From contig JAUVWP010000003.1 in assembly GCA_030604085.1 (NCBI GenBank), positions 1-39,252 of the forward strand: 39,252 nucleotides of DNA, in the 5' to 3' direction. A program made the translations under genes and the position numbers. This document shows positions 2,945-10,531 of the stretch, piece after piece (the stretch's first letter is position 1; each line of letters starts with the position of its first letter). This DNA is from Methanosarcinales archaeon (GTDB lineage: Archaea; Halobacteriota; Methanosarcinia; Methanosarcinales; Methanogasteraceae). The notes beneath the pieces are model-generated. The model was given only the letters and a program-made list of their open reading frames with translations, had not been told where the DNA came from and did not search any database.

Positions 2945-3075
2945 TGCGCTATCTCCTTATTTGCCGTACAACCGGTTAACCGGCTGCGAGTGGCTGTGCG
3001 ATAGATTTCTTTTTTTTCACTGGCTGAATGGAAGTAATTCTCTTCCCTGTTTGCGTATTGTAGGTATTTCTCAAA

Positions 3076-3114
3076 AACCTAACTTTATTAGGGTTAATTA
3101 TTTGCAAACCTAAC
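3076..3114. promoter_or_regulatory. 39-bp operator-like element, copy 1 (AACCTAACTTTATTAGGGTTAATTATTTGCAAACCTAAC)
   Basis: Same 39-bp layout recurs at 5559 and 5968; CCTAA..TTAGG..CCTAA half-sites; lies 34 nt upstream of the ATG at 3149. Confidence 0.75.
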
Positions 3115-3148
3115 TGCCCACATAGATGCACCCAAAAGGAGGTTTAAT

Positions 3149-5065
3149 ATGGAAGACACAAGATTTAAGGCAATTAGAAGAACTCTGTCAACAATCGTGC
3201 TGATAACGATCCTGCTATCATCGATCGCACCTGCTGTTGCCGGAGCTTACGAGAATGGCGGGGCGGATGAAAAGATCGGAGTCCTCGTCGTAGCACATGG
3301 AAGCCCGAGCGAGAGCTGGTGTAGCCATGTGCGGAATGAAACAGATGAGGTGGATCTGCCGTATCAGGTCGAACTCGGGTTCCTCGAGTTTGTACCAAAT
3401 GAGACGATCAATCTCGCTGTCGAGAGACTCGATGACGCCGGTGTAACAGAGATTATCGCTGTACCGCTCTTTATCTCATCACACAGCAGCCATATCCTGG
3501 AGATCGAGTATGTGCTCGGGCTTCGGGAGACGCTTCCACTGACAACTGAGCACGTCGTTGTCGAGGGCGTGGAGATGGAGCGGTCTGTCGTTCCGAATGG
3601 CGGTCGATACGCAATATCCCGTATGCCGCTTGAGGATGACGCTAACGGGGATATGCGAGCGCTGGGGCGCCCGGAAGAGGGGATGGAAGAGGAACTTGTG
3701 CCGGTCGAGACCGATGCAGAGATCATCCTCACCGCTGCGATGGATGACCACTGGCTTGTGGCAGGGATCGTTGCGGATCGCACGGCTGATCTGGTCGCGA
3801 ATCCGGAAGGCGAGACGCTCGTTCTCGTTGCGCATGGGACCGAGGAGGAGGATAACTTCGCCGGATGGGTGAACAGCACCTCATCGCTTGCCAATCAGGC
3901 GCGGCTGAAGCTTCTGTACTGGAGAGATCCCTCGATCGGGATTAGCGGCACAGAAGCCGCGTTTATCCACCATAACGAGACGCTTCACCCTGAATTCACG
4001 TTAAGACCGATCGTTTCAGACGCCGCGGATCCGGTCGTCGTCCCGCTGATGGTAAGTGAGGGATACTTCACAGGCACGAAGATTCCGGGTTTGCTTGAGA
4101 ACCTGACTTACGTCTACGATGGCAGTGCGCTTACGCCGCACCCGAATGTGGCTGAATGGATCGAGATCGTCGCTTCAGAAGAGTTCACAGATCTTACGCT
4201 CCGGATATCTGATGAAGGAGAACTTCTGGATATCTCGCTGGATGATGTGGGTGCTGCACACGGTCACATCTGCCCGTGCGTTGCAGCAGCGTTCAAGGCA
4301 AGCCAGACAGCGTTTCTGGCGTGGGACGGAGTTCCTCCTGCACGCGGCGATCTGGAGATTGCCAGTGCACACCCGTCCGACGGGCATACTGAGACGTTTG
4401 AGTACATCTTAAACTCAAGCGATGACGTCACAGTCAAGCTGCCCGAGGGAACTGATATCGTGAATCTGACTGCGGAGAACTACAACTACAGGTTCGTCGA
4501 GAAATCGACCGGCGACATGGTTGTGGTCAGCGCGAAGGATGGTCTTTTCCCTGACGGCTTCTTTGAGATGAGAAAGAGGTGCAAGACAGGGGTTACAACG
4601 CCTGACGAGAAGTTGGCATTCAAACTTGCGAAGGGGGAGCTTAAGGAGAAGATTCTCTATCTGCCGACAGAGGAAATCTTTGAGGTCGAGTATACCCGAG
4701 GAGGGAGTTCAACAGTACTCACCACCGAGATCATCCCCGCGATCTCGATGACGGTTCCGACGACAACTGTCGATTTCGGGAAGGTCGGGGCAGGGATGAC
4801 TTCTGCAAATCAGGTCATAACAGTCGTGAACACGGGAGCGAAATCTGCAAAGGTCTCTGCAATGATGCTGGATGACGATAGCGGATTCTACAACGAGTCG
4901 CTCTGGTTAAACAGCCTGAATATCGGTGGTTTCTCAAGCGTGGTGCCATCAGACACGTCAGACTTCAGATATGAGTATGAGATTCTCGCAAACCTTGTGG
5001 TGCCTGACTGGGCAGGAGGAAAGTATGATGGGACGATCTTTTTCGTTGCAGAAAGCGAGTCGTAG
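3149..5065 (+). CDS. Secreted two-domain CbiX-like protein fused to an FmdE-like domain and a C-terminal Ig/ASH-like domain
   Basis: Signal peptide; two CbiX-type blocks (GVLVVAHGSPSESW... and LVLVAHGTEEEDN...); FmdE-like HGHICPCVAAAFKASQ; C-terminal VDFGKVGAGMTSANQVITVVNTG; RBS aaaaggagg. Confidence 0.82.
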   Translation: MEDTRFKAIRRTLSTIVLITILLSSIAPAVAGAYENGGADEKIGVLVVAHGSPSESWCSHVRNETDEVDLPYQVELGFLEFVPNETINLAVERLDDAGVTEIIAVPLFISSHSSHILEIEYVLGLRETLPLTTEHVVVEGVEMERSVVPNGGRYAISRMPLEDDANGDMRALGRPEEGMEEELVPVETDAEIILTAAMDDHWLVAGIVADRTADLVANPEGETLVLVAHGTEEEDNFAGWVNSTSSLANQARLKLLYWRDPSIGISGTEAAFIHHNETLHPEFTLRPIVSDAADPVVVPLMVSEGYFTGTKIPGLLENLTYVYDGSALTPHPNVAEWIEIVASEEFTDLTLRISDEGELLDISLDDVGAAHGHICPCVAAAFKASQTAFLAWDGVPPARGDLEIASAHPSDGHTETFEYILNSSDDVTVKLPEGTDIVNLTAENYNYRFVEKSTGDMVVVSAKDGLFPDGFFEMRKRCKTGVTTPDEKLAFKLAKGELKEKILYLPTEEIFEVEYTRGGSSTVLTTEIIPAISMTVPTTTVDFGKVGAGMTSANQVITVVNTGAKSAKVSAMMLDDDSGFYNESLWLNSLNIGGFSSVVPSDTSDFRYEYEILANLVVPDWAGGKYDGTIFFVAESES

Positions 5066-5534
5066 GGGGATAATCCCCCTTCTCCTTCTTTTCCTGCTGA
5101 TCCCGCAAGCATCCGGGATCGGTGTTGGCGCATCACCTGACAGGATCGAGTTTGGCGTGGTGAGCCCGAAAGATGGAGCGGTACGAGAGCTGTACGTGAT
5201 CAACACCGGTGACGCGGCAGAACGAGTTTTACTCACGGTAGAAGGAGTAAATCTTACCGTAGACCCACTGGAGTTCGATCTTGCTGCAAAGGAGAACAGG
5301 GCTGTTGTGGTATCGGTAGATCATGCAGAAGCTGGCGAGCATGAGGGAAGCATCCTGATCACGGCTCGTCCGTCCGGAGACGGCGCAGGCGGGCTTGGTC
5401 TTGGCGCAGGCGTCAGGGTGCCGGTCTCGTTTGTTGTGGAGGACAGTACCTCATGGAAGGTCGTTGTCGTCGCCGGACCGCTTCTTCTTGTTGTGGCTGC
5501 TACGGTGTTCTGGAGGCGGCGAACAAAGGTGTGA
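5025..5534 (+). CDS. Exported, C-terminally membrane-anchored beta-domain protein
   Basis: ATG after aggaggaaagt; MMGRSFSLQKASRRGIIPLLLLFLLIPQASG signal peptide; C-terminal TM WKVVVVAGPLLLVVAATVFWRRRTKV; starts inside the 3' end of the upstream CDS. Confidence 0.8.
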   Translation: MMGRSFSLQKASRRGIIPLLLLFLLIPQASGIGVGASPDRIEFGVVSPKDGAVRELYVINTGDAAERVLLTVEGVNLTVDPLEFDLAAKENRAVVVSVDHAEAGEHEGSILITARPSGDGAGGLGLGAGVRVPVSFVVEDSTSWKVVVVAGPLLLVVAATVFWRRRTKV

Positions 5535-5558
5535 ATGATGTTTCGGGTTTTTGCGCTA

Positions 5559-5597
5559 AACCTAACTTTTTTAGGGCAACTTATTTCCATACCTAAC
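5559..5597. promoter_or_regulatory. 39-bp operator-like element, copy 2 (AACCTAACTTTTTTAGGGCAACTTATTTCCATACCTAAC)
   Basis: Aligns without gaps to copies at 3076 and 5968; upstream of the Cys-rich peptide ORF. Confidence 0.75.
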
Positions 5598-5635
5598 ACC
5601 ACAGTCTTCTAAAACATGAAAGGAGGTGGAGTACA

Positions 5636-5722
5636 ATGGGTTGTGAATGCGACGGAAACTGCGTACATTGCAGATGCAAGAAAGCCAAAGCGGCAAGCGA
5701 AGAAGTTGAAGACGAAGAGTGA
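5636..5722 (+). CDS. 28-aa Cys-rich metallothionein-like peptide
   Basis: MGCECDGNCVHCRCKKAKAASEEVEDEE: five Cys in the first 14 residues, acidic tail; strong RBS aaaggaggtgg; downstream of operator copy 2. Not in the supplied ORF track because of length. Confidence 0.7.
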   Translation: MGCECDGNCVHCRCKKAKAASEEVEDEE

Positions 5723-5741
5723 AAACCTGTGAGAAGATGCC

Positions 5742-5939
5742 TTGGAGCACCCTATGGAACGGATGAAAACCCCTCTCCGTTCCCGCACATATTGCAGGCA
5801 CATAACGAGTTTTATTGGCAAATACGTGGAGTTTGATCATCACATGAATGAGATGATTGAACAATACATCTCTTCGAAAGGTCTCTGCAGGACGATACAA
5901 TCGGCAGTGGTGATGTGGTGGGAGATTCTTGCTCAATGA
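5742..5939 (+). CDS. Small protein, possible ribbon-helix-helix fold
   Basis: 65-aa ORF; C-terminal half KYVEFDHHMNEMIEQYISSKGLCRTIQSAVVMWWEIL resembles RHH spacing; same strand just after the Cys-rich peptide. Confidence 0.4.
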   Translation: MEHPMERMKTPLRSRTYCRHITSFIGKYVEFDHHMNEMIEQYISSKGLCRTIQSAVVMWWEILAQ

Positions 5940-5967
5940 ATCTCAATAAGTTTGGATTTTCATTCAA

Positions 5968-6006
5968 AACCTAATATTTGTAGGGACAACTATTTGTATA
6001 CCTAAC
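5968..6006. promoter_or_regulatory. 39-bp operator-like element, copy 3 (AACCTAATATTTGTAGGGACAACTATTTGTATACCTAAC)
   Basis: Aligns without gaps to copies 1 and 2; downstream reading frames appear broken. Confidence 0.68.
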
Positions 6007-6233: not shown

Positions 6234-6373
6234 ATGGAAAACGTACAACAACTGACCAGATGCCCGAAGTGTGGAAAACGTCGTACGTATGCGGACATAC
6301 ACAGATCTGCAGCACATGCGGCTACTGGATCCTGAAAGGGACTGCGAGAATGGATTCGATCGTTGTCATCTGA
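6234..6373 (+). pseudogene. Frameshifted small zinc-ribbon protein remnant
   Basis: Frame A MENVQQLTRCPKCGK..., then frame B ...SYVCGHTQICSTCGYWILKGT; together they make a CxxC...CxxC pair split by a frame change. Confidence 0.45.
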
Positions 6374-6488
6374 ACATCATTTTCCCACTCAGGAGAATCT
6401 GCGCATGTTCATGTCCAGGATCTTAAGAATCCTGATTTGTTCGGATTTTTGAATTTATTCGAGTTTTTGCATCACCGGTGTCGTATAT

Positions 6489-8729: not shown

Positions 8730-9620
8730 ATGAACACATATTACACATCTGAAGAGATCGAGAAGTATCGGCAGGCGGGAAAGATCCTTGCAGAGGTGCG
8801 GGAGCAGACCGCAAAGAGAATAACAGTCGGAGCGAGCATCCTTGAGACCGCGGTCTTTTCAGAGAATCTGATACGCGATCTCGGCGGACAGCCCGCATTC
8901 CCGTGCAACCTTTCGCTAAACGAGGATGCTGCGCACTATACGCCCGGCGCAGACGATACAGCGGTATTCGGCGAAGATATGGTAAAACTCGACATCGGGG
9001 TCCACGTCGATGGATATATCGCGGATGCTGCCATGACCGTCGATCTTTCAGATCATCCTGAACTCGTGGACGCGTCGAGGGCAGCGCTTGAGAGCGCTAT
9101 CGGCGTGATTCACGCCGGCATCGACACAAGGGAGATTGGGGCGGCAATCGAGGAGACGATTGGTGAGTTCGGATACAGACCGATCTCAAACCTCACAGGA
9201 CACGGACTCGCACAATACCAGGCACATGCCCAACCAAGCATCCCGAACGTACATGCACGCACCGGAACCGTGCTTTACGATGGGCAGGTGGTCGCAATCG
9301 AGCCGTTCGCTACTGAGGGGGAAGGAAAGGTCAGGGATGCGACGAGATGGGAGATTTACCACGTGACGACAGAAAAACCCACGCTTTCGCGCATTCCAAG
9401 AGAAAGAGCACTGCTAAAGGAGATGATGGAGTATAAAAACCTCCCGTTTGCGAGAAGATGGTTTTCCGGAGCGAAGATCGACCTCACATTCAGGCAACTG
9501 ACAAAAGCAGGACTTATCAAACCTTATCCCATCCTGCGGGAGGTCACCGGTGCGCTCGTGTCTCAGGCAGAGCATACCGTGATCGTCACCGAGAATGGCT
9601 GTGAGGTTACAACTGCATGA
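8730..9620 (+). CDS. map: Methionine aminopeptidase type II
   Basis: [78 protein letters not shown]. Confidence 0.95.
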
Positions 9621-10531
9621 TGCATCTCATCTCCGTATCAGACCTGACGCACGAGGAGATATATGAGCTCCTCGATCTGGCTGCCCGGATAAAAGAGAGA
9701 CGCGGCCATTACACGGATGCGCTCAAAGACATGAGTCTTGCCATGATATTTGAAAAGCCGTCCACGCGCACGAGGGTTTCATTTGAGGTTGCGATGACCG
9801 AATTCGGAGGACACGCGCTCTACTTGAATTACGCCGATCTCCAGCTCGGACGGAGCGAGACGATCTGCGATACCGCAAGCGTGCTCTCCAGATACGTCCA
9901 TGTGATCATGGCGCGGGTTTATCGCCACGAGACCGTACGTGAACTTGCGAGATGCGCAGATATCCCTGTGATCAATGCGCTCTCTGATATGGAGCATCCG
10001 TGCTAGTTGCTTGCAGATCTGCTGACCATCCGGGAACGAAAAGGCGATCTTAAGGATCTGCGCATCGCGTGGATCGGGGACGGGAACAACGTCTGCAACT
10101 CACTGATACTTGGAAGTGCAATAACCGGCATGAACCTCTCGGTAGCGTGCCCTGCCGGATATGAGCCGGATGCGGGGATGGTGGCTAATGCTAACGAACT
10201 CGGAAGCGGCGTCTTGATTACAAACGACCCGATCGAGGCAGCATCCGGCGCTGATGTCCTCTACACCGATGTATGGGTATCGATGGGGGATGAGAAGGAA
10301 GAAGAGAAGCGCCTCCGGGATTTTTCCGGTTTCCAGATCAACAACGATCTTTTGAGTCATGCAAAATCCGATTGTATCGTGCTTCACTGCCTACTAGCGC
10401 ATCGCGGTCAGGAAATCTCTGCCGAGGTGTTGGATGGCGAGCATTCGGTTGTGATGGATCAGGCAGAGAACCGACTGCACGCGCAAAAAGCGCTACTGAT
10501 GACGGTGATCCCGCGCCAGTGCGATGGGTAA
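9617..10531 (+). CDS. argF: Ornithine carbamoyltransferase, interrupted by an in-frame TAG (10004-10006) in the HPCQ motif
   Basis: [20 protein letters not shown]...[23 protein letters not shown]...[11 protein letters not shown]; both halves in the same frame (305 codons including TAG). Confidence 0.9.

Follow-up and report, generated by a model that had tools for sequence, protein, structure and literature searches.

The three repeated sequences examined here lie in a window of 39,252 nucleotides (the whole stretch of DNA analysed, contig C162 of a 2.0-Mb archaeal genome), and belong to a genome-wide set of promoter elements which, together with its counterparts in relatives, is well supported by comparative evidence as an iron-starvation regulon. 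Marine methane- and ethane-oxidizing archaea have the element in common, and it very probably switches on iron scavenging under iron shortage, because it stands in front of iron-uptake genes and its users share one iron-sensor protein. The original prediction of a metal-responsive, DtxR-type operator in front of genes for a CbiX-FmdE protein and a Cys-rich peptide agrees with the comparative evidence presented below, and needs widening: iron is most likely the metal, the element has four half-sites, and one clade of short DtxR proteins is the likely regulator.

A pattern search of the window recovered three ungapped 39-bp copies on the plus strand (3076-3114, 5559-5597 and 5968-6006), exactly as had been described, while 100 dinucleotide shuffles gave no match. 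The ATG codons said to follow the first two copies were found 34 nt (3149) and 38 nt (5636) past them, each preceded by a GGAGG Shine-Dalgarno sequence. The features of this region are listed in the table.

Table. Features of the window around the operator-promoter arrays.
Feature	Positions	Strand	Details
Operator-promoter array 1	3060..3114	+	GTAGG 3060-3064, CCTAA 3078-3082, TTAGG 3088-3092, CCTAA 3109-3113; same position at nine orthologous loci
Presumed TATA box TATTT of array 1	3099-3103	+	Within array 1
Secreted 638-aa CbiX-FmdE-type chelatase-like protein	3149..5065	+	Pfam CbiX 2.6e-11; Shine-Dalgarno GGAGG 3138-3142
Second secreted/anchored protein	5025..5534	+	ORF list; overlaps end of CbiX-FmdE ORF; no Pfam match; probably in one operon with cbiX-fmdE
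Operator-promoter array 2	5542..5597	+	TTCGG 5542-5546, CCTAA 5561-5565, TTAGG 5571-5575, CCTAA 5592-5596
28-aa Cys-rich peptide MGCECDGNCVHCRCKKAKAASEEVEDEE	5636..5722	+	16 homologs
Operator-promoter array 3	5951..6006	+	TTTGG 5951-5955, CCTAA 5970-5974, GTAGG 5980-5984, CCTAA 6001-6005; kept in seven genomes
Zinc-ribbon small gene (MENVQQLTRCPKCGK...)	6234..6335	+	Frameshifted here; 46 aa in relatives
Remnant of fourth local array	6440..6472	+	Centre and 3' end lost in this genome; intact in several relatives (AGTCGAGTTTTTATAGGGCAGGATATTTGCATACCTAAT)

In a sequence logo built from 92 non-redundant sites, CCTAA (positions 3-7), TTAGGG (13-18), TATTT (24-28) and ACCTAAC (33-39) are invariant or nearly so, the DtxR-type half-sites CCTAA/TTAGG themselves being invariant. 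The proposed operator length of 39 bp was too short, since a fourth half-site lies upstream: TTAGG with at most one mismatch started at -17, -16 or -15 in 76 of 83 non-redundant sites, compared to 34 of 83 that reach one mismatch in a control window, and was followed by a T-tract. The array consensus is TTAGG-N13-15-CCTAA-N5-TTAGG-N16-CCTAA, about 55 bp, and it is strictly oriented towards the gene. Among the gene classes checked, starts with a Shine-Dalgarno sequence lay at least 37 nt past the element (34 nt for cbiX-fmdE), and DUF454, which lacks one, had its start exactly 16 nt behind the element in six of the seven cases. These spacings place the likely transcription start within about 10-17 nt of the element end and make TATTT the probable TATA box, bracketed by half-sites, with the inner TTAGG on one side of it and the last CCTAA on the other.

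The arrangement had been said to differ from the usual DtxR/IdeR operator, and it does. In IdeR, each monomer reads one CCTAA and a single dimer needs TTAGGNNNNCCTAA (PMC8464063); the full IdeR/DtxR box is TTAGGTTAGSCTAACCTAA, with TTAGGNNNNCCTAA as its single-dimer form (PMC8464063, PMC10317159). The array resembles this box in having four CCTAA/TTAGG half-sites, in its iron-uptake targets, in overlapping the core promoter, and in the presence of a DtxR-family regulator in the same genomes, but it spreads the half-sites over about 55 bp (N13-15, N5, N16) instead of 19 bp, with an everted central pair, a non-palindromic orientation and strict bracketing of the presumed TATA box. The minimal palindrome TTAGG-N4-CCTAA is absent from both the 39-bp core and the 57-bp array, and occurs as a separate downstream box only. 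As a definition of the regulon this palindrome was rejected, as it occurred once in this genome and 13 times in 17 family genomes, less often than the reversed control, although most of the boxes found adjoin arrays. Leyn and Rodionov reportedly described archaeal DtxR regulons (FetR/MntR/ZntR) that include FeoAB in 2015, with motifs said to be short palindromes. DtxR-type control of FeoAB in archaea is a shared trait, but here the four-half-site array is the main element and the palindrome an accessory at some promoters. The element appears, from its sequence features, to function like a DtxR/IdeR operator without being a canonical one, and would represent a new operator architecture for a known regulator family.

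Exactly 12 strong sites (E<=1e-7) were identified in the genome by relaxed pattern searches, a local rescan and R1, a sequence-only profile made from 12 sites. The next-best matches were partial (E>=0.04), and a search with the reversed pattern gave no match in the genome. The regulon is therefore not the local one that had been proposed. In addition to the window sites, before cbiX-fmdE, the 28-aa Cys-rich peptide gene and the broken zinc-ribbon gene, there are sites on contig C100 before DUF454, DUF3793, a three-domain FeoA, FeoA-FeoA-FeoB and flavodoxin, on C73 before a second three-domain FeoA, on C39 before a secreted dockerin protein and a 1552-aa CobN-like protein, and on C172 before the remnant of a DUF3793 gene. 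The iron regulon reading came from the presence among the targets of FeoAB and flavodoxin, both classic genes of iron starvation; with FecCD, seen in relatives, FeoA, FeoB, flavodoxin, DUF454 and DUF3793 make up a set for iron uptake or iron sparing. The C172 site (L019:5115-5260; G000:C172:11114) is an intact array before a decayed DUF3793 remnant of 20 codons, between NAD kinase and cbiQ, and a full DUF3793 gene lies behind the same array in relatives G001, G004 and G006.

About 150 ungapped sites were read in the fetched loci of relatives, with iron-type genes downstream, FeoA genes being the largest target class. Neither of the two outcomes named beforehand as a refutation was seen: the copies are tied to promoters, and they recur upstream of orthologs. 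All nine CbiX-FmdE orthologs for which upstream DNA was retrieved (69-90% protein identity; they include ANME-2 HMMV-459B1 and E20ANME2, GoM-Arc1 GB37, an HMMV ANME-3 bin and CSMAG bins) carry the element about 34 nt upstream, and in L126 a homolog that follows the same element combines the CbiX and FmdE domains. The 28-aa peptide follows the pattern CxCxxxCxxCxC with an acidic tail and matched no family in Pfam or NCBIfam; all but one of its 16 homologs start 37-39 nt after the element, and the 39-bp core of array 2 is letter-for-letter identical across several genera. Behind the third window site, six relatives carry a 46-aa zinc-ribbon ORF 219-235 nt downstream (one with a divergent end). 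Further targets in relatives were FecCD, DUF2325, thioredoxin-like and beta-helix secreted proteins. In relative G013, a gene for a FecCD-type iron/cobalamin ABC permease lies behind an array (L119:9307-10422), so the reach of the regulon may extend to an ABC importer, although none was found behind a site in the present genome.

Across the order, 36 of the 186 genomes scanned contained the element: all 17 of family f1, genera g11 and g16 of f2, f3, and in f4 genus g27 alone plus one single-site genome. It was absent from all f5 genomes and all those of f2 genus g5, which have only a long DtxR. Each f1 genome has one strong short DtxR gene (about 152 aa), and in the DtxR tree the short proteins formed one clade (99/98) with those of element-bearing genomes of other families. 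In at least 20 genomes the clade gene shares a contig with the feoAAB element and lies downstream of it at a distance of about 3 kb. The exceptions, all incomplete genomes, were G034 and G049, where a clade gene was not found, and G030, which has no element; a few f4 genomes whose element matches are weak (G027, G066, G069, G096) have basal or divergent clade members. Genus g27, which includes the HMMV2 record and is probably ANME-3, has the element and was therefore predicted to carry the same clade; such a gene was found in five of five g27 genomes, grouping with f2 genus g11. This suggests that regulator and sites were transferred horizontally together, and the apparent joint passage of operator and DtxR between the two genera is a clean example of a regulator travelling with its binding sites.

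A TAGG-N4-CCTA palindrome lies just before the ATG of most clade dtxR genes of f1, f3 and g16, and TTAGG-N4-CCTAA (at most one mismatch) was found 7-23 nt downstream of 24 of 149 arrays, against 0.3 in shuffles. Half-site sequence and adjoining canonical boxes together point to the clade DtxR as the regulator. Its predicted metal ligands, judged against two approximate reference sequences, include an IdeR-type Cys and an Asp at the Met10 position, as in MntR. Iron-sensing IdeR and manganese-sensing MntR are distinguished by Met10 and Cys102 as primary-site ligands (PMC10317159), and by this rule the Cys would favour iron, the Asp being MntR-like. In this genome the only dtxR (L018:11027-11486; G000:C100:19026-) is frameshifted in an A-run, leaving 57 aa and a downstream fragment, while those of relatives are intact at 152 aa; either the assembly is wrong here or the iron repressor has really been lost. 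The long dtxR genes (223-230 aa, in f2 g5 and f4 g27, e.g. L174 and L251) have TTAGG-N4-CCTAA-like palindromes in their own promoters, which suggests classic autoregulation by a second DtxR type.

Another regulator travelling with feoAAB, such as a FeoC-like winged-helix protein, could instead act on the array and leave only the canonical boxes to DtxR. A small Cys-rich, winged-helix-like ORF does lie between feoB and dtxR (L018:10718-10977), and the array lacks the canonical palindrome, but the half-site is exactly the DtxR/IdeR sequence, and arrays and canonical boxes are adjacent with half-sites in common, so this arrangement is considered rather unlikely. A NikR-like ribbon-helix-helix tetramer, bound to the TTAGG-N16-CCTAA part, would make the regulon responsive to nickel or cobalt and not to iron. 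NikR is encoded in this genome, CbiX and CobN chelatase-like targets handle Co/Ni tetrapyrroles in known cases, and the half-sites in question lie two helical turns apart on one face, with the N16 spacing of the E. coli NikR operator, GTATGA-N16-TCATAC. That spacing is the only point of agreement, as the NikR half-sites GTATGA/TCATAC were not found in the array, which has the DtxR-like TTAGG/CCTAA, two extra half-sites, and canonical DtxR boxes adjoining many copies. The targets include FeoAB and flavodoxin but no nickel-specific transporter, and 49 of 50 genomes have NikR, whether they carry the element or not. Being nearly universal in the order and showing no co-distribution, NikR was rejected as the regulator, and a nickel or cobalt regulon is improbable.

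Less probable again is that the array is an activator site or a core-promoter variant, with an unusual BRE/TATA for strongly expressed genes, and not a repressor operator. The conserved TATTT within it and its strict orientation towards the gene would fit, and DtxR proteins can activate as well as repress, but the array is restricted to iron-type genes, not highly expressed ones, and most of the order lacks it. Copies that are numerous, nearly identical and oriented alike with respect to genes would also fit a dispersed repeat or a transcribed RNA element such as a riboswitch, but both were rejected, and are hardly credible, as the copies sit in promoters of specific genes with conserved spacing and with flanks unlike one another within one genome, Rfam matched nothing in the window besides a tRNA, and where an ATG follows after only 16 nt there is scant space for the element to be transcribed.

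Repression of the array by Fe(II)-DtxR, in an iron-starvation regulon, is probable, and is the best overall explanation of the sequence evidence. From the computed sites, architecture, conservation, targets and co-distribution with the DtxR clade, we infer DtxR binding, an iron signal, the sign of regulation and the position of the TATA box. The short two-domain DtxR-family iron sensor, encoded behind feoAAB, would bind as several dimers along the array in the presence of ample Fe(II), the half-sites being about 19, 10 and 21 bp apart centre to centre, near whole helical turns. Bound DtxR would hide the TATA box and block TBP/TFB, with transcription starting just past the array. When iron falls, DtxR would leave and the FeoA/FeoB importers and flavodoxin would be made, along with FecCD uptake (in relatives), the CobN-like and CbiX-FmdE surface chelatase-like proteins, and the Cys-rich peptides. 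The main gap in this mechanism is the binding mode, as the 39-bp core has no minimal IdeR-dimer site (TTAGG-N4-CCTAA), and known DtxR-DNA complexes do not explain it, the convergent half-sites standing about one turn further apart than such complexes would allow.

The CobN-like protein on contig C39 (PF02514, CobN-Mg_chel, 1021.6 bits) has the heme dechelatase HmuS as its closest PDB relative and contains HIGTHG, in keeping with the HFG[TA]HG-type motif that defines the superfamily (PMC12583661). It was rejected as an HmuS, as the HmuS-specific LSLDHxxEFMGG (His-1209/Glu-1212) is missing and the CobN-like LDGDDPFQYFGG aligns in its place. The setting resembles that of HmuS with FeoAB in Bacteroidota, where an exported CobN-superfamily protein likewise belongs to an iron-starvation set with FeoAB (PMC12583661, PMC6460266), but the archaeal protein differs at this motif and is a predicted chelatase. 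In Bacteroides fragilis, CobN-like proteins and FeoAB are both required for use of heme iron (PMC6460266), and the role of archaeal CobN/HmuS-family homologs was stated to be unclear in 2025 (PMC12583661). The present data place archaeal CobN/HmuS-type and CbiX-type surface chelatases under a putative iron-starvation promoter, which makes a function in tetrapyrrole iron a testable hypothesis. More tentatively, in marine alkane-oxidizing archaea the DtxR sensor may read CCTAA in an expanded four-half-site array around the TATA box, a DNA-reading mode undescribed for the family, and the surface CobN- and CbiX-like chelatases of its regulon may remove iron from tetrapyrroles outside the cell, with the heme of consortium multiheme cytochromes as a possible source; this combined reading is possible but doubtful.

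ANME archaea are the main marine methane sink, and searches of the literature turned up no account of how they regulate iron. The element supplies an operator, together with a candidate sensor and a list of targets, with which metatranscriptomes can be interrogated. Elsewhere in the window, the ornithine carbamoyltransferase gene (argF, 9617-10531) has an in-frame TAG at the conserved HPCQ motif (EHPC*LLADLLT), which is a premature stop, a sequencing error, or a TAG read as an amino acid.
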